In this document: positions 4,894 through 31,790 of the stretch, piece after piece
Numbering within the stretch: the first letter of the stretch is position 1
Layout: each line of letters opens with the position of its first letter
Source: Wenzhouxiangella sp.
GTDB lineage: Bacteria; Pseudomonadota; Gammaproteobacteria; Xanthomonadales; Wenzhouxiangellaceae
Reading direction: 5' to 3'
DNA length: 32,904 bases
Assembly (NCBI GenBank): GCA_007134485.1
Contig: SLKT01000050.1
Span: 1-32,904, forward strand
The notes under the pieces: model-generated
What the model was told of the DNA's origin: nothing
The model's database searches: none
Seen by the model: only the letters and a program-made list of their open reading frames with translations
Program-made: the position numbers and the translations under genes

Positions 4894-5280
4894 ATGAGCG
4901 AGATACCTTCGGACCTGCGCTTTTCCGAAAGTCATGAGTGGGTCAGCCAGGAAGAAGACGGGCTGGTCAAGATCGGCATCAGTGATCACGCCCAGGCGCA
5001 GCTTGGCGACCTGGTTTTCATTGAATTGCCCGAAGAGGGTGCGACCTTCAGCCAGGGCGATGCCTGTGCGGTCGTCGAATCGGTCAAGGCGGCTTCCGAT
5101 GTCTATTGCCCGGTTTCAGGCGAGATCGTGGCGATCAACGAGCTGCTCGCCGATTCTCCGGAGATTGTCAACAACGATCCCTACAACGACGGCTGGCTGT
5201 TCAGTGTTCGTCTGGACGACGCCGATGAGCTGGAAGAGCTCATGGATGCCGACGCTTACAAGGATCATATCGAGGACTGA
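4894..5280 (+). CDS. gcvH: Glycine cleavage system H protein
   Basis: Lipoyl carrier that shuttles the aminomethyl group between the P, T and L proteins of the glycine cleavage system. The 128-residue length is typical, and the lipoylation lysine is K65 in ESVKAASDV. The ATG at 4894 is chosen because it follows an AGGGA site; the TTG two codons upstream is not needed. No gcvT or gcvP lies in the window, so the system is split in this genome. Its 3' end overlaps the 3' end of nfi, on the other strand, by 16 bases, leaving no room for a terminator between them. Confidence 0.97.
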
Positions 5281-5924
5281 GCATCGCTCGCGCTGCGTCC
5301 GGCCAGCTTGTCCGCCAGGCGAATGGGCTCCGGTAGTCGATAGCGGGGCGTGCACGCCAGCACCCATTCCACGGCGGTCTCGAGACTGACTCGATGACCG
5401 GTCGATACATAGACCGGTCGCACGTCGGCGCGTGTGCGCACAACCATTCCGATGATTTCGCGCCCATCCTCGAGAGGTGATCGGGCGCCCTTTTGGGTGC
5501 CCGGTTCATCAGCTTGTCCGCATAGCCGGCTCTTGGCCACGCCGATGGTCGCCAGACCGGTCTCGATGCCCAGGTGGCAGGCAATGCCGAGGCGGCGAGG
5601 GTGCGCTCGTCCCTGGCCGTCGCACAACACCAGGTCGGGGCGAGTGCCGAGTTGCCCGATGGCCCGGGCCACGCCGGGCAATTCGCGAAATGACAGCAGT
5701 CCCGGGATGTAGGGTAGGGTAGTGGTCACTTCCACAACGGCCTGATCAAGTACGTCCAGCCCGGGGTAAGACATCAACACCGCGGCCGCCCGGGTCACGT
5801 TCCGGCCGCGCGGAAAGGCCGCGTCAACACCCGCCACGGTCGCGATCGAAGCGGGCAGCTCATCGGTCGGAATGACCTGCGCGGCAAGGCGTCGTTGCGA
5901 CTCGATCAGGTCTTGAATGCCCAT
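5265..5924 (-). CDS. nfi: Endonuclease V (deoxyinosine 3' endonuclease)
   Basis: Nicks DNA at the second phosphodiester bond 3' of deoxyinosine, starting repair of deaminated adenine. The 219 residues match the family length (E. coli 223). The acidic active-site residues are D34 (AGVDAAF), E81 (SFRELP) and D102 ([12 protein letters not shown]); the strand-wedge motif [11 protein letters not shown] (71-81) and the conserved lysine K131 are present. The start overlaps the end of glnE by 19 bases, so it is probably the last gene of that operon. Its end overlaps gcvH tail to tail. Confidence 0.96.
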
Positions 5925-8437
5925 GCCCAGGCCTGATCAATTCGCTCGCTGACTTCTTCGGCCACCGGCCGGTCCGGTTCTCGTTCCAGCCAGTCATGGT
6001 GACGACGCTCCAGCAAATGCCGCCAGGCATGGATCAGGTCATCGGCCATTGCCTTGTCGAGCCAGCCACTTTGCCCCAGAATCTCCAACTGATCATCCGG
6101 TTTGCGACATTCGACCAGATCGGCCTGCTCGGCGGAACGGGCCAGCACACCCAGCTCAGCGATGAACTGCAGGTCAACCAGGCGTTGCCTGACCGCGCCC
6201 TCATCGCGTTCGCGGCGCTGGCGCTGGCGCATTTCCAGCAGGTCCTTGCGCAATCGGGCTTCATCCCGGACCTGGCGCAGCACTTCTTTGCGCGCCTGCT
6301 CGAACCCCTCGGCCAACTCGGGGTTACCGGCGATCCAGCGCGCCCGGATCAAGGCCTGATGCTCCCAGGTCCAGGCCTGTTCGGCCTGGTACTCGGCAAA
6401 CCGGTCCAGCCGGCTGACCAGTAGCCCGGCACGCCCGTTGGGCCGCAAGCGGGTATCGATCTCGAACAGGCGGCCACCGGGAATCGGCATCTGCATGAAG
6501 CTGATCAGGCGCTGGGCGCTGCGCACCGGCGCGCTGCCCGGGCCGTGCAGGAACACCAGGTCCAGATCCGAGGTGTAGTGGAGCAGTCCGGCGCCCAGGT
6601 TGCCGTAGGCAATCACGGCCAGGTCGGGTTCGCCCTCGCTGATCAGCTCCAGCACCTTTTCGATGATGGTCTCGGCGACTTCGGTCAGGCGGGCGGCAGC
6701 AGCATCCGCCTCGAGACGTCCATCCAGCTCGGCCAGACCGGTACGCAGGAAAGCCGCCTGGCGCCAGCGCCCCAGTGCGTGCAGGCTGGCCTCGGGATCA
6801 TCCGGCTCCGTGACCGGCAGGGCGGGCAGATCAAAGCCATGCACGGGATCAAGCAGATCATCGAGCAACTGGGGTGCGGCCACGATCCATTCGGCCAGCC
6901 GGGTACTGAGACGGAATACCCGCACCAGGCGTTCCAGGGTGGCCGGGCGTTCGTAAAGCAGCGCCATATAGGCTGAACGGCGGCTGATCTGGTCGACCAG
7001 GCCAAGCAGGGCTTCCAGGCCGGTTTCGGGATGATCATGGCGGCTGACCTGTTCAATCAGCAGGGGCATGAGGCGTTCCAGTCGTCTTCGGCCCTCGGCG
7101 CTGAGGGCGCGGTTGGATAGGCGCCCATGCAGTCTGTCAAGCAGTTCGGCAACGCCTTCGGGTTGTTCGAAACCGGCTTGTTGCAGGCGCTCGGTCAATC
7201 CCGGCTCCGGCGGCCACAGGGCCAGCCGGGTGTCGGTGTCGGGTTCGCGGAAGTGCTGCTTGAACCGCTGGCGGACCCGTTCGCGGTGTTGATCAAGTTC
7301 CAACATCAATTCCTGCCAGTTTTCGTTGCCCATCAGCCAGGCCAGGCGCTCCTGTCCCCGCTCGTCATCCGGAAGGTGATGACCTTGTCGACCGGTCATC
7401 GCCTGCAAACGGTTTTCCAGAATGCGCAAGTATTGATAGGCCTGCTTCAGACTTTCACCGGGTTCGGCTTCGATCAGCCCCAGTTCCACGGCCGCTGAAA
7501 GGGCGGGCAGAAAACCCGGTTGGCGCAACTCGGGCTCCTTGCCGCCGCGCAGGATCTGCAGGCTTTGCACCAGGAACTCGAGTTCGCGAATGCCGCCGGC
7601 GCCGCGCTTGATGTCTTCGCCGCGCGCATGCGCCCGGCTGGCGGCATCGATTCTGGCATGCAGATCGCGCAGGGATTCGAAGATGCCGTAATCCAGGTAG
7701 CGTCGGTAGATGAACGGCTGCAAGGCCTTGAGCAAGGCCCGACCGCTTTCTAGATCTCCGGCCACGGGTGCGGCCTTGAGCCAGGCGTATCGTTCCCAGG
7801 TGCGTCCTTCATTGAGAAAGTACTGCTCCATGGCCGACACCGACCACACCAGTGCCCCGGCATCGCCGAATGGACGCAGGCGTGTATCCATGATCCAGAC
7901 CCGTCCATGGGCGGTGACCGGATCGATCAGGCCGATCAGCTCCCTGGCCAGCAGTTTCAGCCAGGCGCCGGCATCCACGCGACGCGGCCCGGTGCTGTGA
8001 CCCTTGCCGCGGTAGCTGAACACCACATCAATGTCGGAGTTGAAGTTGAGCTCTTCGCCACCCAGCTTGCCCAGCCCCAGGATGGCCAGTCCGATGGGCT
8101 GACCATGCTCATCGACCAGTTCGCCGTGGCGTTCGCGGACTTTGACGGCAGCGGCTTTCAGGCCCAGATCCAGACAGGTGGCCGCAAGTTTCGACAAGGC
8201 CCTGCCGGTCTCGGCGATGCTTGCCTGACCGGTCAGGTCGCGCCACAGGATGTGCACCGAGGACAGCTGGCGGAATCGTCTCAGGCTCAGACCCGGGTCT
8301 TCGAGCAGGCGGTCTTCATCCGGTTCGGGCACGGGTTGGTCCGGTGAGTCATGATCGGGGAATCGCCGCCAGGTTTCAGCGACAAAATCGCTGCGTGCCG
8401 ACAGATCCCCCGTTTCGATGTCGATGGCTCGTTTCAT
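5906..8437 (-). CDS. glnE: Bifunctional glutamine synthetase adenylyltransferase / deadenylylase
   Basis: Adds AMP to, or removes it from, the regulatory tyrosine of glutamine synthetase, switching its activity with nitrogen status signalled by PII. Two nucleotidyltransferase domains are visible: the N-terminal one with GLGKLGGEELNFNSDIDVVF (D135, D137) and the C-terminal one with SDLDLVF (D624, D626), separated by a helical linker. At 843 residues it is about 100 shorter than the E. coli enzyme, partly because the N-terminus before the first domain is shorter; catalytic motifs are complete. The ATG overlaps the stop of the upstream amidotransferase as ATGA, so translation is probably coupled. 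Confidence 0.96.
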   Translation of the reverse strand: MKRAIDIETGDLSARSDFVAETWRRFPDHDSPDQPVPEPDEDRLLEDPGLSLRRFRQLSSVHILWRDLTGQASIAETGRALSKLAATCLDLGLKAAAVKVRERHGELVDEHGQPIGLAILGLGKLGGEELNFNSDIDVVFSYRGKGHSTGPRRVDAGAWLKLLARELIGLIDPVTAHGRVWIMDTRLRPFGDAGALVWSVSAMEQYFLNEGRTWERYAWLKAAPVAGDLESGRALLKALQPFIYRRYLDYGIFESLRDLHARIDAASRAHARGEDIKRGAGGIRELEFLVQSLQILRGGKEPELRQPGFLPALSAAVELGLIEAEPGESLKQAYQYLRILENRLQAMTGRQGHHLPDDERGQERLAWLMGNENWQELMLELDQHRERVRQRFKQHFREPDTDTRLALWPPEPGLTERLQQAGFEQPEGVAELLDRLHGRLSNRALSAEGRRRLERLMPLLIEQVSRHDHPETGLEALLGLVDQISRRSAYMALLYERPATLERLVRVFRLSTRLAEWIVAAPQLLDDLLDPVHGFDLPALPVTEPDDPEASLHALGRWRQAAFLRTGLAELDGRLEADAAAARLTEVAETIIEKVLELISEGEPDLAVIAYGNLGAGLLHYTSDLDLVFLHGPGSAPVRSAQRLISFMQMPIPGGRLFEIDTRLRPNGRAGLLVSRLDRFAEYQAEQAWTWEHQALIRARWIAGNPELAEGFEQARKEVLRQVRDEARLRKDLLEMRQRQRRERDEGAVRQRLVDLQFIAELGVLARSAEQADLVECRKPDDQLEILGQSGWLDKAMADDLIHAWRHLLERRHHDWLEREPDRPVAEEVSERIDQAWAWAFKT

Positions 8438-9219
8438 TGCCTGTTGGACTCGGCAGCACGAATGACGGCGCGAAACAAGGCGCGTTGTTCAGGTCTTTGC
8501 GGCAGGTATTCCGGATGCCATTGCACGCCCAGCAGGAAAGGCAACCGGCCATGTTCGATGGCCTGGATCACGCCGTTGGGCTCGCGTGCGCACACATTCA
8601 TGTGCTCACCGAGGCGGTCGATGGCCTGGTCATGCAAGGCGTTGACCTGGGCGCTGGCCCGTCCCAGGGCCCGGGCCAGCAGCGAATCGGACTCGACTTC
8701 GACCTGCTTGCGCGGCAGCACCGAGCGAATGGCCGGATGCTCCTCGTAGAAACTCTCGATGTTCTGGTGCAGGCTGCCCCCGGCGACCACGTTGATCAAT
8801 TGCATGCCGCGGCAAATGCCGAACACAGGCAGATCCCGTTCCAGGGCTTCGCTGATCAGCCGCTTTTCGAGTTCGTCGCGGGCATGATTGAGCCCGGTGG
8901 TCTTGGTGGTCAGCACCCGGCGCAAGGCCGCCAGCAGCGGAAACATGATGATTCCCGCCAATCGTCGCCAGCCGCTCATGCCGCGATCCTTGAGTTGCTC
9001 GATCTTCGGCATGGACTCCTGGCCATAAAGGTTCGGGCTGACATCCGCACCACCGCCGATGATCAGTCCGTCCAGTTCATCGATCGAGCGCGGCTTGCCC
9101 GGCCGGATCCGTATCGGTTTGCCGCCTGCCCGTCGTACTGCGTGGCGAGTGAACAGCCAGGCGGCCAGACCGCCCTTGTCCGGACCGGTGACACCGATTC
9201 TGGGTCTCTTCGGCCTCAT
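8434..9219 (-). CDS. Class I glutamine amidotransferase / gamma-glutamyl hydrolase-like protein
   Basis: A 261-residue member of the triad amidotransferase fold, closest by eye to PuuD-type gamma-glutamyl hydrolases. Visible are IIGGGADVSPNLYG (53-66), the nucleophile elbow FGICRGMQ (C136) and the HPE triad segment in GVQWHPEYLP (H235, E237). Between the first motif and the nucleophile there is a basic and hydrophobic stretch, WRRLAGIIMFPLLAALRRVL (84-103), longer and greasier than expected, which might dock on a membrane or partner. The ATG at 9219 overlaps the amidoligase stop as ATGA; a longer upstream reading frame begins with low-quality Arg-rich sequence and was not used. The pairing suggests it hydrolyses or processes the amidoligase product; the substrate is unknown. 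Confidence 0.88.
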   Translation of the reverse strand: MRPKRPRIGVTGPDKGGLAAWLFTRHAVRRAGGKPIRIRPGKPRSIDELDGLIIGGGADVSPNLYGQESMPKIEQLKDRGMSGWRRLAGIIMFPLLAALRRVLTTKTTGLNHARDELEKRLISEALERDLPVFGICRGMQLINVVAGGSLHQNIESFYEEHPAIRSVLPRKQVEVESDSLLARALGRASAQVNALHDQAIDRLGEHMNVCAREPNGVIQAIEHGRLPFLLGVQWHPEYLPQRPEQRALFRAVIRAAESNRQ

Positions 9220-10238
9220 GAGCGAATTTTGCGGATGGTGCTGGCGATCAGGCTGCGCAGTGTGCTGGCGCCGGCCAGGCGGTCGGTTCGGGCGGTCTCC
9301 AGTGCTTCCGGATCGGCGGCCAGGCGCTCGACCTCGAGCCAGTCGTTCCAGGGCTTGGCCAGCGACCAGTCGGGTTCGTCGATCAGGCAATTGGGCAAGC
9401 GGTAGTGAAAGGCCGGGCGGGGTTTGATCAACTCGGTTTCCACGTCGGCGGCCATGACTCGCTTGCGATCAATGTGGGCGAACAGCGGCAACATGTCCAG
9501 CGGCCGATTCCGGGTAGGTGTGAATTCCAGGAAGTCATCGATCAATCGGCGGATGCTGGGGCGGTACTTGCCTTGCATGACATGAACGACGTAGTCCTCC
9601 GGGTAGGGATGGATGTACGGGCTGATGCGGCGGGCCAGGTCGATATCGCTGCGTTCCAGCAGCCAATCGTACTTGAGCAGGAAGGCACGCAGCATGGCCA
9701 GCAGATACTCGGCCTTGAGGCTGGCCGTCTCGATGTTGAGGTGCAGCCCGAAGGCATAAAAGGGGGAGCCGTGGGTGCCACGGGCGCCGGCCTTGTGCAG
9801 TTTTTTGCGGATGGCATCCAGACGCTCCAGCTTGCTCCATGGAATCGGCGGGCCGACCAGCTCCAGCGGTACCACTAGTCCGGCAACCCTGGAAATCAGC
9901 GCCTCGACATTCTCGCGTGTCTCTCCCTCGCCGATCTCTATGCCCAGTTCCGACAGGTGCTGCTGATACTTTCGGCTGGTCAGCAGGTTGGCATCCAGTT
10001 CGATTTCGAAATCCCCCAGCTCGGTATCCACTACACGGGTGGAAAAAGCGCTTTCGCGTTCCACACGTCCTCCCAGCGTGGCGGTCACGGCTTTGGCCAT
10101 GACTTCCGGCTCGATGCCGGCCATTTCCATTTCCACTCCGACGCGCCGTTCGCCGCCTTCACTGTTGTTGGTCCAGGGGGGCGGGTTGAATCTGGAGGGG
10201 GTGGACTTGTTCGTGTCGGCGGGCTCGGGCATGTGCAT
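9216..10238 (-). CDS. Putative amidoligase (glutamine-synthetase-like COOH-NH2 ligase fold)
   Basis: A 340-residue protein with features of the Amidoligase_2 family: RRVGVEMEMAGI (31-42; E36 and E38 would bind metal/ATP), GDFEIELD (75-82), FGLHLNIE (163-170; H166, N168) and a late RPAFHYRLPNC (274-284). Such enzymes are thought to form amide bonds between a carboxylate and an amine using ATP, and published genome surveys place them next to class I glutamine amidotransferases, as here. The substrate cannot be read from the sequence. The ATG at 10238 lies 15 bases from the heptamer array at 10253-10280 and beyond that is the groEL terminator, leaving little space for a normal promoter. Likely first gene of the operon with the amidotransferase, glnE and nfi. 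Confidence 0.85.
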   Translation of the reverse strand: MHMPEPADTNKSTPSRFNPPPWTNNSEGGERRVGVEMEMAGIEPEVMAKAVTATLGGRVERESAFSTRVVDTELGDFEIELDANLLTSRKYQQHLSELGIEIGEGETRENVEALISRVAGLVVPLELVGPPIPWSKLERLDAIRKKLHKAGARGTHGSPFYAFGLHLNIETASLKAEYLLAMLRAFLLKYDWLLERSDIDLARRISPYIHPYPEDYVVHVMQGKYRPSIRRLIDDFLEFTPTRNRPLDMLPLFAHIDRKRVMAADVETELIKPRPAFHYRLPNCLIDEPDWSLAKPWNDWLEVERLAADPEALETARTDRLAGASTLRSLIASTIRKIRS

Positions 10239-10252
10239 AGGTTACTACTTAA

Positions 10253-10283
10253 GGGGTCAGGGGTCAGGGGTCAGGGGTCAGGG
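10253..10283. repeat. Heptamer tandem array, unit GGGGTCA
   Basis: Four perfect copies (10253-10280) plus GGG. This is the reverse complement of the TGACCCC array at 199-222 and at the right end of the window. It sits exactly between the terminator of groEL and the start of the amidoligase operon. Confidence 0.95.
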
Positions 10284-10284
10284 T

Positions 10285-10316
10285 AAAAAAAACCCCGGCC
10301 GAGGCCGGGGTTTTTT
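10285..10316. terminator. Bidirectional rho-independent terminator downstream of groEL
   Basis: A run of eight A, then CCCCGGC, a CGAG loop, GCCGGGG and six T. The 7-bp all-G/C stem flanked by A and T tracts works as an intrinsic terminator in both directions. For groEL (minus strand) it lies 25 bases past the stop codon and shows the ideal stem followed by a long U tract. Confidence 0.93.
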
Positions 10317-10340: not shown

Positions 10341-12026
<1,686 letters not shown>

Positions 12027-28036: not shown

Positions 28037-28975
28037 ATGCGAAAAAATCTCATTGTCGTCATGGACGATATTGCCTCGATCACGGTCAGGAAGGACACCA
28101 GCCTGGCCCTGATGCTGGAGGGTCAGCGTCGTGGCTACCACCTTCATTACATGAATGATCCGGATCTGTTTCTGGACAACGGCGAGATCATTGCTCGCAT
28201 GCACCGGATCCGGGTCAGGGATGATGCCGATGGCTGGTTCGAGCTCGGAGCGGAAGTCACCCGGCCACTCGGTGAGGAGGATCTGGTGCTGATGCGCTCC
28301 GATCCCCCGGTCGATGACGATTATCTGTTTGCAACCTACCTGCTCGAACTGGCCGAGCGTGCCGGTGCCCGGGTGGTCAATCGCCCGCGCGCGCTGCGCG
28401 ATTTCAACGAAAAGCTGGCCATTGCTCACTTTCCCGACCTGACTCCCGATACCCTGGTCTCGTCGAACCCGGCGCGTTTACGCGAATTCGTGGGCGAGCG
28501 CGAGCGGTCGGTGCTCAAGCCACTCGACGGCATGGGCGGGAAGAGCATATTCCTGAGCGCTCCCGGTGATCCGAACCTCAACGTGATCATCGAAACCCTG
28601 ACCCGCAACGGCCGGCGTCTGGCCATGGCCCAGGAATTCCTGCCTGCCATTGCCGATGGAGACAAGCGCATTCTGATCATTCACGGTCGTCCCGTGCCCT
28701 ATTTGCTTGCCCGTATTCCCGGAGAGCAGGATTTCCGCGGCAACCTGGCTCGCGGCGGGCGCGGGGAAGGGCGGGAGTTGTCGCCGACCGACCGGGCGAT
28801 CGCCGAGGCAGTGGCGCCGCTGTTGCTCGAAAATGGAATTGATCTGGCCGGACTCGATGTCATCGGTGACCGGTTGACCGAAATCAACGTGACCAGCCCG
28901 ACCTGCGTGCGGGAACTGGATGCCCAATTCGGGATCAACATTGCAGGAGATCTGTTCGACGCCGTCGACCCATGA
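28037..28975 (+). CDS. gshB: Glutathione synthetase
   Basis: Joins glycine to gamma-glutamylcysteine with ATP, the last step of glutathione synthesis. The 312-residue ATP-grasp protein has DPPVDDDYLFATYLLE (about 94-109), the glycine-rich VLKPLDGMGGKSIF loop (about 158-171), the RILIIHGRPVPYLLARIP segment and GLDVIGDRLTEINVTSPT near the end. GGAG lies 5 bases before the ATG. It overlaps tonB as ATGA. The gshB-tonB-algH-ruvX-pyrB order next to pilG is the same as in Pseudomonas aeruginosa. Confidence 0.97.
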   Translation: MRKNLIVVMDDIASITVRKDTSLALMLEGQRRGYHLHYMNDPDLFLDNGEIIARMHRIRVRDDADGWFELGAEVTRPLGEEDLVLMRSDPPVDDDYLFATYLLELAERAGARVVNRPRALRDFNEKLAIAHFPDLTPDTLVSSNPARLREFVGERERSVLKPLDGMGGKSIFLSAPGDPNLNVIIETLTRNGRRLAMAQEFLPAIADGDKRILIIHGRPVPYLLARIPGEQDFRGNLARGGRGEGRELSPTDRAIAEAVAPLLLENGIDLAGLDVIGDRLTEINVTSPTCVRELDAQFGINIAGDLFDAVDP

Positions 28976-29835
28976 AATCAAAGCTGTCCGTCACGTTCGG
29001 GGGAGATTCGCTGACCCTGGCCCTTGCCGTGGCCATTGCGCTGCATGTGGTCGTGATCGGGCTGGTGCACTTTGACGTGATCCTCGATCGTCCGGACTCG
29101 GTCCCCACCAGCCTGGACGTCATCCTTGTTGAGTGGGCCACCGACGAGCCCCCGGAAGACGCCGACTTTCTGGCCCAGGTCACGCAGCGCGGGGCCGGGG
29201 AAAGTCCGGACCTGGACCGACCCGCCGAGCCGGTTCCGGCCGGGGAAGTGATGCCCGAGGTCGAGCCGGAACCCGAGGAGGTCGAGGCCGAGACGCCCGA
29301 GGTCGAAATGGCCCCGACCGAACTGATCGCCACCGAGGCGCTGGATGCCGACCTGCTGGTCGATCCCGAACCGGATGATGCACCGACCGACCGGGTCGAT
29401 GCGCGTGAGCTTCGCCAGCAGTCACTGGCCATGGCCCGATCCTCGCCCGACCGCTTTGCCCAGGCCCAGGACTTTCCGGAGCGCAAGCGGCGCAAGTTCA
29501 TATCGGCCAATACGCGCGAACACCTCTATGCCAGCTACATGCGGGCCTGGGTCGCCAAGGTGGAACGGGTGGGCAATATGAATTACCCCGAGCAGGCGCG
29601 GCGCATGAACCTGGAGGGCAGCCTGGTGTTGAGTGTGGATGTGCTGGCCGATGGCAGTGTCGATCAGATCCGCGTGCTGCGCTCGTCCGGCTACGACGTA
29701 CTGGATGAGGCGGCGGTCAGAATCGTGCGCCTGTCGGCGCCTTTTGCGCCCTTGTCCCAGGAGATTCGCGAAGAGGTGGATGTACTGACCATTACCCGGA
29801 CCTGGCAATTCTCCAGTCGCACGGGACTGCACTGA
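28972..29835 (+). CDS. TonB-family energy transducer (TonB3-like)
   Basis: A 287-residue protein with one N-terminal membrane helix (about 14-34), a long acidic Glu/Asp/Pro spacer (about 55-145) and a C-terminal TonB domain (about 195-280; NYPEQARRMNLEGSLVLSV, SVDQIRVLRSSGYDVLDEAA). TonB proteins pass proton-motive force from ExbB/ExbD to the outer membrane. The spacer lacks the Lys-Pro repeats of classical TonB, and exbB/exbD are not nearby. In Pseudomonas the gene at this position (tonB3) is needed for normal twitching, so a link to the adjacent pilus system is likely, though inferred. It starts inside the gshB stop. Confidence 0.9.
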   Translation: MKSKLSVTFGGDSLTLALAVAIALHVVVIGLVHFDVILDRPDSVPTSLDVILVEWATDEPPEDADFLAQVTQRGAGESPDLDRPAEPVPAGEVMPEVEPEPEEVEAETPEVEMAPTELIATEALDADLLVDPEPDDAPTDRVDARELRQQSLAMARSSPDRFAQAQDFPERKRRKFISANTREHLYASYMRAWVAKVERVGNMNYPEQARRMNLEGSLVLSVDVLADGSVDQIRVLRSSGYDVLDEAAVRIVRLSAPFAPLSQEIREEVDVLTITRTWQFSSRTGLH

Positions 29836-29880
29836 GCGGCAGGTGGTCGGGGGTGTGTCCACGCCGTTGTTTCCCGGCGC

Positions 29881-29889
29881 TGGTAGAAT
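29881..29889 (+). promoter_or_regulatory. Extended -10 immediately upstream of algH
   Basis: TGGTAGAAT fits an extended -10. Only six bases separate it from the GTG start of algH, so transcription would begin at or next to the start codon and the mRNA would be leaderless. No ribosome-binding site is seen before the GTG. Confidence 0.45.
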
Positions 29890-29895
29890 ACCGGT

Positions 29896-30453
29896 GTGAG
29901 TTACCTGGAGCATCAATTCCTGATCGCCATGCCCGGCATGGAAGACCCCAATTTTTTCCGTGGCGTCACCCTGCTATGCCAGCACAATGAAGAAGGCGCA
30001 TTGGGGATTACCATCAATCGGCCATCGAGCGAATTCACCCTGGCTGACGTACTGACTCAGATCGGAATTGCCTGCGAGGATGATCGAGTCGCCACCATGC
30101 CGGTCTACGAGGGTGGGCCGGTCCACCCGGAACGCGGCTTCGTGCTGCACACCGGGGAACCGAACTGGGAATCGAGCATGGTTGTCGGCAACGGGATCAG
30201 TGTGACGACATCGCGCGATGTGCTCGAGGCCATCGGCGCCGGTCGTGGCCCCGACAAGTTTTTGGTGGCCTTGGGCTATGCCGGTTGGGCCGCCGGCCAG
30301 CTCGAGGACGAAATGCGCGAAAATGCCTGGCTGAACGTGATGGCTCGCTCCGACATTGTCTTCGATCTCCCCGACGACAAGCGCTGGGAGCAGGCGGTTG
30401 CAGCGCTCGGCATCAACGTTTCCAGCTTGCAGCCGTCTGGCGGCCATGCCTGA
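29896..30453 (+). CDS. algH: AlgH/YqgE family protein (UPF0301)
   Basis: A 185-residue cytosolic protein of the conserved YqgE/AlgH family, with FLIAMPGMEDPNFFRGVTLL at the start, GALGITINRPS (about 34-44), YEGGPVHPERGFVLH (about 71-85) and LGYAGWAAGQLEDEM (about 128-142). Its biochemical role is not settled; in Pseudomonas it was reported to affect alginate gene expression. The GTG at 29896 puts the conserved N-terminus in place and no better start is available. The end overlaps ruvX by 8 bases. Confidence 0.93.
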   Translation: MSYLEHQFLIAMPGMEDPNFFRGVTLLCQHNEEGALGITINRPSSEFTLADVLTQIGIACEDDRVATMPVYEGGPVHPERGFVLHTGEPNWESSMVVGNGISVTTSRDVLEAIGAGRGPDKFLVALGYAGWAAGQLEDEMRENAWLNVMARSDIVFDLPDDKRWEQAVAALGINVSSLQPSGGHA

Positions 30454-30892
30454 AAGCGCCGACGGCAACTGGCTGGCCATCGACTTCGGTGAGCGCACCA
30501 TCGGCCTGGCGGTTGCCCATCCCCTGACCGGATCGGCCAGACCCCTGGATCCGGTTCGCAATACCAGTCTCGAGGGCGTCGACCAGGCGCTGGTCGATCA
30601 GATTCGGCAGTGGCGTCCGGTCGAAATCGTGATCGGATTGCCGCTTGACGGCGAAGGCAACGATACCGGGATGAGCCGTCGAATCCGCCAGTTTGCCGCG
30701 CGTATTGCCGAACTGGCGCCCGATGTGCCAGTCAGTCTCCACGATGAACGTCTCAGCTCGGCAGCTGCGGCCAATGAATTTGCCCATCGTCGCAGCCAGG
30801 GCAGGGCAAGGCGACGTGACGCGGCCCGGCTCGATAGCCTGGCGGCGGCCCAGATCCTGGATTCCTGGATGCGAGAACATGGAAAAGCCTGA
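30446..30892 (+). CDS. ruvX: RuvX/YqgF pre-16S rRNA nuclease family protein
   Basis: An RNase H-like nuclease of 148 residues, described as a putative Holliday-junction resolvase and as the nuclease maturing the 5' end of 16S rRNA. Seen are WLAIDFGERTIGLAV (first catalytic Asp), VIGLPLDGEGNDTGMSRR and the final SLHDERLSS and DAARLDSLAAAQIL segments. The ATG at 30446 overlaps the algH stop, giving the usual short N-terminus; longer in-frame upstream sequence lies within algH and was not used. Its end overlaps pyrB by 14 bases. Confidence 0.94.
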   Translation: MPESADGNWLAIDFGERTIGLAVAHPLTGSARPLDPVRNTSLEGVDQALVDQIRQWRPVEIVIGLPLDGEGNDTGMSRRIRQFAARIAELAPDVPVSLHDERLSSAAAANEFAHRRSQGRARRRDAARLDSLAAAQILDSWMREHGKA

Positions 30893-31790
30893 TCGCGGCT
30901 TGCATCATCTGCTCGGCATCGACTCGCTGACCGACCGTGATATCGAATCATTGATCGAGCGGACGCTGGAATTGTCCAACGGCGCGCCGGCAAGTTCGGC
31001 AAGCGTCACCACCGCAAACCTGTTCTTCGAGCCGAGCACGCGTACCCGGGTGTCGTTCGAGCTGGCGGCATTGCGACTGGGCATGCGGGTGATCAACATC
31101 GAACTGGAGAAATCATCCGCCACCAAGGGTGAAAGCCTGGAGGATACCGTGGCCACCCTGGCGGCGATGGGGGTCGGCTGCCTGGTCATCCGGCATCCTC
31201 AGACCGGACGACTGCAGCAACTGGCCGAAAATCTGCACGCGCCGATCCGGCTGCTCAATGCCGGTGATGGACAGGGCGAGCATCCCAGCCAGGCGTTGCT
31301 GGATGCAGCCACGCTGGCCGCCGACGGCCTTGACTGGTCGCAGGCAACAATCGCCATCGTGGGCGATATCCGCCATTCCCGGGTGGCCGGTTCCAACCTC
31401 AAACTTTTTGATCGGCTTGGCGCCGGTCGTTTGCGAATCGCCGGCCCGGAGGAAATGCTGCCTGATCCGCCGGGTATCGAGCGGGTGGAAGTCTGTCACT
31501 CGATCGAGGCGGCGGTGCGTGATGCCGATGTCATCATGATGCTGCGTGTCCAGCGCGAGCGCATGGATCGAGCCGGCTGGCCGGATCCCGACCAGTACCA
31601 TCGTCGCTGGGGCTTGAATCCGGCGCACCTGGAGCTGGCCCGGCCCGGCTGTCGCGTGATGCACCCGGGTCCGATCAATCGGGGCATGGAGATCGACGGG
31701 GCGGTGGCCGACTCCGACCAATCCTTGATTCTTGATCAGGTGCGCATGAGCGTATTCGCGAGAATGGCCATCTTCGAGTGGTTGCATTAG
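30879..31790 (+). CDS. pyrB: Aspartate carbamoyltransferase catalytic subunit
   Basis: Forms carbamoyl-aspartate, the committed step of pyrimidine synthesis. The 303-residue protein shows FFEPSTRTRVSFELAA (carbamoyl phosphate binding), KGESLEDT, GEHPSQALLD and VMHPGPINRGMEI (aspartate side), all intact. The ATG at 30879 overlaps the ruvX 3' end; a longer frame would run back through ruvX. Neither pyrI, pyrR nor a pyrC/pyrC' partner follows: in Pseudomonas pyrR lies between ruvX and pyrB, and it is absent here, so any UMP control must differ. Confidence 0.96.
   Translation: MEKPDRGLHHLLGIDSLTDRDIESLIERTLELSNGAPASSASVTTANLFFEPSTRTRVSFELAALRLGMRVINIELEKSSATKGESLEDTVATLAAMGVGCLVIRHPQTGRLQQLAENLHAPIRLLNAGDGQGEHPSQALLDAATLAADGLDWSQATIAIVGDIRHSRVAGSNLKLFDRLGAGRLRIAGPEEMLPDPPGIERVEVCHSIEAAVRDADVIMMLRVQRERMDRAGWPDPDQYHRRWGLNPAHLELARPGCRVMHPGPINRGMEIDGAVADSDQSLILDQVRMSVFARMAIFEWLH

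Follow-up and report, generated by a model that had tools for sequence, protein, structure and literature searches.

Amidoligase_2 (PF12224) is a protein family that was reportedly surveyed by Iyer et al. 2009, where neighbourhoods combining an amidoligase gene with the gene for a class I glutamine amidotransferase (GAT1) are said to have been predicted from genome surveys. The excerpts of the literature returned by the family name give no tested function for Amidoligase_2, and no paper on an amidoligase–GAT1 pair was among the matches listed, seen as extracts, for the amidoligase, PuuD, haloalkaliphile and Wenzhouxiangella literature. Pairs of a glutamine synthetase-like and a GAT1-like protein occur in the PuuA/PuuD and aniline pathways, where they are synthase/hydrolase pairs; PuuA presumably has the glutamine synthetase fold, as does the amidoligase described here. 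MurT–GatD, a two-gene unit of a ligase and a glutamine amidotransferase as described in the available part of its report (PMC3267633), offers a further likeness. Here we compare with these systems a gene pair in a stretch of 32,904 nucleotides from Wenzhouxiangella sp. (SLKT01000050.1, positions 1 to 32,904; contig 63 in a 206-contig, 3.35 Mb genome), termed the window throughout, in which an Amidoligase_2 gene and a GAT1 gene directly precede glnE. The comparison indicates that the amidoligase and GAT1 form a two-gene module of their own, passed on together and dispersed across phyla. It sets the pair, which is constant, apart from glnE, which is specific to one lineage, so that work can start on the pair itself. 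An inserted-helix subtype of GAT1, a linkage to YqaA and the single origin of the glnE linkage are new here, and the inserted helix, a recurring and little-known DedA-type partner and the acidic proteins of the carriers all provide testable handles.

The pairing was followed through several samples. A search of 61 genomes (the window's own and others from the same genus, family or order) gave an amidoligase match in 25 and a total of 26 loci, the window's own included, whilst a scan of named contigs matched at least 592 stretches, 570 of them confirmed, from which the best 80 named loci were analysed. A class survey of 370 gammaproteobacterial genomes gave a match in 21, with 21 loci besides the window's own (two in G276 and a remnant in G389), and a phylum survey of 397 genomes gave a match in 26, with 25 places besides the window's own; G096, G121 and G374 are common to both surveys. 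GAT1 follows the amidoligase in 76 of the 80 named loci and stands beside it in 18/21 class-survey loci and 23/25 phylum-survey places. Genes in the loci were called with a small purpose-made codon-usage caller, some of whose starts are wrong; before alignment these made several GAT1s look short, and the groEL of L135, overlooked by the caller, was revealed by tblastn.

Joint inheritance can be read from an insert in GAT1. Residues 83–106 of the window's protein, between the GGGAD motif and the nucleophile, are a predicted helix with a hydrophobic core and flanking arginines. The insert helix is present in 80 of the 96 loci that could be typed and missing from 16, the loop from GGGAD to nucleophile being 78–89 residues long (126 in L086) in the former and 50 in the latter; loop type was unreadable in 9 of 105 loci, and also in 7/25 phylum-survey places, two of these without GAT1. 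The 80 insert-type loci contain repeat sequences from different collections (75 are distinct by GAT1 sequence), and L027 and L071 are apparently the same contig. An amidoligase tree was built of 121 rows, from which repeats (L027, L030, L031, L237, L238, L239 and L241) and also L259, L270 and L276 were left out; L241 and L259 are both G121, so this genome is absent from it. Both this tree and the glnE tree come from quick searches that returned long-branch warnings, with support given solely by the Shimodaira–Hasegawa-like approximate likelihood ratio test. The insert requires two changes over the 107 typed rows of the amidoligase tree (L029 being set as helix-less by hand), and within the insert clade Pseudomonadota stand among Thermodesulfobacteriota, Balneolota, Bdellovibrionota, Myxococcota and Verrucomicrobiota, which together point to joint inheritance of the pair and to its horizontal spread.

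The locus and its two proteins

The features of the locus are as follows.
9216–10238, minus strand: amidoligase, Amidoligase_2 family, glutamine-synthetase-type fold (340 residues; PF12224, E 2.9e-65)
8434–9219, minus strand: GAT1, class I glutamine amidotransferase / peptidase C26, PuuD-like (261 residues; PF07722, E 5.5e-50; PF00117, E 2.6e-17; triad C136, H235, E237)
8902–8973, minus strand: GAT1 insert, arginine-flanked hydrophobic helix (residues 83–106; modelled helix 83–103)
5906–8437, minus strand: glnE, glutamine synthetase adenylyltransferase/deadenylylase (843 residues; PF03710, PF08335)
5265–5924, minus strand: nfi, endonuclease V (219 residues; PF04493, E 8.2e-73)
10291–10306, minus strand: terminator-like hairpin and T run, between groEL and the amidoligase
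10341–11993, minus strand: groEL, upstream neighbour (adjoins glnE in three pair-less relatives)

The amidoligase is a clear member of Amidoligase_2, with 221 bits against a gathering cut-off of 22 over profile positions 2–244 of 245. Its model (54-row alignment; mean predicted local distance difference test score, pLDDT, 89.7) gave its best structural alignment with glutamine synthetases (Z 12.3, root-mean-square deviation 3.3, 197 residues aligned). Foldseek alone returned weak matches, none with E under 0.001, the top six rows running from E 0.012 to 0.3, with a predicted glutathione synthase, YbdK and a plant glutamate–cysteine ligase at the head of the list; to the families of the last two the amidoligase has no Pfam sequence match. 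The conserved acidic and basic residues E36, E38, E80, D82, E126, R203, R243, R274, H278 and R280 match in type what an active site of this fold should contain, and may be the catalytic ones. By sequence, the amidoligase profile found nothing convincing among solved structures (best E 0.22), and the Pfam scan matched Amidoligase_2 only and no Mur ligase domain, unlike MurT–GatD. Phage records gave no match to the amidoligase at E 0.001, plasmid records gave 11, every one below 60% identity, and PHROGs held nothing for it. PADLOC returned nothing for either the amidoligase or GAT1, and hence no sign of a listed defence system.

The GAT1 model (50-row alignment, mean pLDDT 87.1) carries the triad C136, H235 and E237 of a class I amidotransferase / peptidase C26, invariant across the 50 rows. 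In both sequence and fold it is closest to lin1909 (uncharacterised), PuuD and SpuA, matching the fold of PuuD with E 2.2e-20 and that of the SpuA glutamyl-thioester structure with E 6.3e-20. It shares fold and triad with the PuuD/SpuA gamma-glutamyl-amine hydrolases at 28% identity in structural alignment, but it differs from PuuD in its inserted helix and in its score of 89.2 bits against a cut-off of 266 for the PuuD equivalog NF008471 (gamma-glutamyl-gamma-aminobutyrate hydrolase). No polyamine-pathway oxidase or dehydrogenase was recognised among the Pfam-scanned neighbours, a part of all neighbours.

In order along the minus strand lie groEL, the Amidoligase_2 gene, GAT1, glnE and nfi. 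The joints between amidoligase and GAT1 and between GAT1 and glnE are both ATGA overlaps, and the nfi start falls within the final 19 bases of glnE. The GAT1 start was taken as the ATG at 9219; the entry in the list of open reading frames, 8434–9390, opens at an upstream TTG. A first-pass annotation, made from the window's sequence, had described the same four overlapping genes, and its coordinates, strand, ATGA joints and nfi start within glnE were all confirmed; the fixed-ratio translation that it read from these joints is a supposition. The gene names that it gave were also right by Pfam, with glnE scoring 700 bits against 487 for the NCBIfam equivalog NF008292 (profile positions 90–933 of 946) and nfi 281 bits against a curated NCBIfam cut-off of 230. 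The region holds 3 terminator-like sites, no more than shuffled sequence would yield (mean 4.3), and a scan of it found no sigma-70-like promoter. A short direct repeat with a TGACCCC-type unit occupies positions ~10250–10285, between the terminator-like hairpin of groEL and the amidoligase start, and nfi and gcvH are convergent with a 16-base overlap (5265–5280).

The linkage to glnE

The coupling of the pair to glnE had been singled out in the first-pass annotation. Adjacency extends beyond this genome: glnE follows the pair in 22/26 loci of the relatives search (the contig of L021 breaks off, and the flanks of L022, L023 and L024 are without glnE) and in 19 of the 80 named loci. In-frame four-base overlaps of amidoligase and GAT1 (ATGA, GTGA or TTGA) are kept in 18 of these 19 trios, and a GAT1–glnE gap of −4 was called in 15. 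In the surveys, by contrast with the named trios, glnE stands beside the pair in 0/21 class-survey and 0/25 phylum-survey places, scored in flanks of ~1.5 kb, and it was also not found in twenty wider class-survey stretches of 8 to 14 kb each. On the amidoligase tree, the closest rows to the window are mostly titled Wenzhouxiangella, as on the glnE tree, and the 20 glnE-adjacent rows among the 121 (19 named loci and the window) lie on one side of one branch, with one change and support of 99. On this tree the glnE adjacency is of single origin. Because the pair settled once before glnE in one family, the link looks inherited rather than functional, and we regard the coupling as most likely one event, maintained through operon structure. 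The first-pass annotation had held that the functional link would be weak if the pair stood next to many unrelated genes and glnE adjacency were limited to this genome; many unrelated neighbours were indeed found, but the adjacency is conserved within its lineage.

Among relatives of the window, glnE and the pair also occur apart. Five genomes of the same genus (G007, G020, G021, G024 and G026) have no amidoligase match and retain glnE, which in G021, a genome 84% complete, is a piece at a contig edge; glnE can thus do without the pair. In G007, G024 and G026, but not in G020, groEL directly adjoins glnE. Pair-less rows are scattered among pair-carrying ones on the glnE tree and need two changes, which fits two losses, gains being also possible. 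In G033 and G035 the pair lies beside genes other than glnE.

The gene upstream of the trio varies. Among the 19 named trios, 10 have groEL within ~1.2 kb upstream, 5 have pyrB as the direct upstream neighbour, 2 have a CitMHS-type transporter gene and 2 have other genes. In the five loci with pyrB, the trio comes after gshB, tonB and pyrB; since positions 28037–31790 of the window hold homologues of these three genes, local rearrangement would explain the five. On the other side, nfi is a weak member, found after glnE in 11/19 trios and once of these (L035) past another gene. An Mpo1-like gene lies 3′ of glnE, between glnE and nfi or in the place of nfi, in L135 (978–1430), where it was identified by Pfam scan, and in L137, L138, L139 and L035, where it was judged by sequence. 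The amidoligase and GlnE of L040, a contig titled Phycisphaerales, both fall inside the Wenzhouxiangella clade, and L040 is probably a mis-binned contig.

Membrane neighbours of the pair

A DedA/VTT-domain gene, yqaA, lies directly downstream of GAT1 in 7/16 helix-less loci against 0/80 insert loci (p 1e-6), and the difference persists when only distinct GAT1 sequences are counted (7/16 against 0/75, p 1.4e-6). All seven of these neighbours, when scanned, exceed the cut-off for the VTT domain PF09335 and are 38–44% identical to E. coli YqaA. The order amidoligase, helix-less GAT1, YqaA is seen in L029 (9945–11058), L105 (10313–11403), L243, L244, L246, L247, L250, L251 and L267, of which L029 has a GAT1 untyped by pattern and L267 comes from the phylum survey. 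On the amidoligase tree the YqaA linkage takes seven changes, and has therefore been gained or lost repeatedly. We take YqaA to belong to COG1238, in keeping with its use in the models of a paper on DedA proteins. In the available part of that paper, this DedA subfamily is described as little known, with the movement of lipids that are uncharged or carry a positive charge as its proposed role (PMC10127716). In E. coli itself, yqaA lies 72 bp upstream of gshA, the gene for glutamate–cysteine ligase.

Membrane proteins are more generally frequent close to the pair. In loci outside the Wenzhouxiangella set, at least two membrane segments were predicted by a simple hydropathy rule in 14/33 same-strand neighbours within 60 bp against 10/118 other flanking genes (p 2e-5), the figure for all called genes being 158/1170; with the seven YqaA rows removed, 7/26 close neighbours remain (p 0.016). 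This excess, together with the insert helix, suggests that the pair may be membrane-associated. The hydrophobic core of the helix is ~11–13 residues long, which is short for crossing a membrane, so that an in-plane anchor or docking helix appears more likely.

Proposed chemistry, rival explanations and habitat

The account that we favour, to which we give a little better than an even chance, is that of a mobile, membrane-associated pair that forms and cleaves amides on substrates of the glutamate/glutamine type and has glnE as its neighbour. The amidoligase, with its glutamine synthetase fold, would spend ATP to activate a carboxyl group, the likeliest candidate being the gamma-carboxyl of either glutamate itself or a compound that contains it, and would join this group to an amine. 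GAT1, as a Cys–His–Glu amidase of the PuuD/SpuA type, would cleave a gamma-glutamyl amide, or glutamine, via a glutamyl thioester. Gamma-glutamyl chemistry is suggested by the kinship of GAT1 to PuuD and SpuA, with a hint from L079, a Desulfuromonadales metagenome-assembled genome (MAG), in which a gamma-glutamyltranspeptidase gene (8288–9985) lies 18 bp upstream of the amidoligase. Both enzymes would act at the inner membrane, the large GAT1 subtype being held there by its inserted helix and part of the helix-less subtype working beside YqaA. The pair would have reached its place directly before glnE in an ancestor of the Wenzhouxiangella-type lineage and for the most part kept it, forming an overlapping operon; by its linkage GlnE is a neighbour of the module, and in function it is probably not a working part. 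The pairing of an amide-bond-forming enzyme with a gamma-glutamyl-hydrolase-like one, as first annotated, stands as a reading at the level of fold.

Several points weigh against this account. The substrate and activity of the pair are putative, and sequence does not separate a gamma-glutamyl ligase/hydrolase from a glutamine-fed amidation complex. For the membrane part, the segments come from hydropathy, and the insert, with so short a core, could be a protein contact instead of an anchor. YqaA follows GAT1 in just 1/25 phylum-survey places, and a strict division into helix or VTT protein is weakened by L249 and L091, where other VTT-domain genes lie upstream of an insert-type GAT1. As for glnE, the trio was kept while its upstream neighbour changed, as it would be under a real functional tie, and genes for P-II and an ammonium transporter lie near the Thioalkalivibrio pair, though on the other strand and with genes between.

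It is possible, if doubtful, that GAT1 hydrolyses glutamine and passes the ammonia to the amidoligase, which would amidate a carboxylate much as MurT–GatD does on peptidoglycan, yielding a carboxamide, perhaps on a membrane-linked molecule. The near-constant pairing and joint inheritance, the intact triad, the membrane signs and the fold of the amidoligase would all suit such a complex, the best known members of the glutamine synthetase fold being users of ammonia; yet GAT1 is nearer to lin1909, PuuD and SpuA than to the synthetase-coupled amidotransferases of GMP synthase, CTP synthase and the like, and the pathway pairs named at the outset join a synthase to a hydrolase. A tie to nitrogen control, which the first-pass annotation had proposed, we regard as distinctly improbable: the pair would make a glutamate- or glutamine-derived compound whose production has to follow glutamine synthetase activity, hence its co-translation with GlnE. 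This would agree with the retention of the trio in 19/80 named loci and the window across changing upstream neighbours, with the four-base overlaps kept in most trio loci, and with the Thioalkalivibrio loci (L050, L051, L053, L056–L060, L064, L065, L067, L068, L070, L073 and L075–L077), of which 17 have a P-II gene and 15 an ammonium transporter gene close to the pair but on the other strand, with FolB, HPPK or Gcw_chp genes in between (identified by scanning one representative of each). The one lineage's adjacency and these nearby genes make a weak link, given the single origin of the glnE adjacency, its absence from the survey places elsewhere, the retention of glnE by pair-less relatives and the pair of G033 and G035 away from glnE.

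The favoured amide-forming and -cleaving pair may also be considered in relation to habitat. The best 80 named loci are rich in Thioalkalivibrio, Ectothiorhodospira, Desulfurivibrio, Gracilimonas and Fodinibius, which are genera of salt and soda lakes; these loci are a biased sample, since they were chosen for their closeness to the gene of one halophile and many are MAGs from a few sampling series. Among gammaproteobacteria, the median protein isoelectric point (pI) was 5.79 in 16 carriers and 6.47 in 49 non-carriers (p 0.0017), and the share of proteins under pI 5.5 was 0.44 against 0.20 (p 7e-5), in statistics that ignore shared ancestry and with G+C differing as well (p 0.009). One stretch per genome was taken, of at least 9 kb and with at least six called proteins of 100 residues; of the stretches fetched, 16 of 19 from carriers and 49 of 60 from non-carriers qualified. 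The acidic proteins of carriers, as in halophiles, suggest salt adaptation. The association of ectoine synthase with carriers in the 370 gammaproteobacterial genomes is weak (7/21 against 51/349, p 0.03; 6/20 against 52/350, p 0.10, with G389 moved out of the carriers), and restricting the count to the 54 matches that exceed the curated cut-off gives p 0.02, or 0.055 with G389 moved. We think it rather unlikely that the pair is a membrane-bound amide-forming system for high salt or pH, with a helix-held GAT1 or a YqaA/DedA lipid-transporter partner, that yields an uncharged solute derived from glutamine or alters a molecule of the envelope, the overlap with glnE in Wenzhouxiangella tying glutamine supply to glutamine synthetase.

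One particular solute was also considered. N-carbamoylglutamine amide is a compatible solute from Ectothiorhodospira marismortui, alias E. mobilis, according to the available part of its report (PMC1224877), and strain DSM 4180T is tabulated as E. marismortui in the portion available of another (PMC7824335). L078, titled E. mobilis DSM 4180, carries the pair. A role in the synthesis of this solute was not adopted because the pair also occurs in relatives of E. mobilis and in many unrelated groups. On contig 7 of G389 (L176), a 132-base amidoligase remnant containing a stop (1024–1155) lies directly downstream of ectoine genes on the same strand (1299–2965; ectC recognised by search and ectB by sequence). 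Near the pair in three genomes are CsbD-like stress genes, one confirmed by Pfam scan in L122 (446–652) and the others in L125 and L129.

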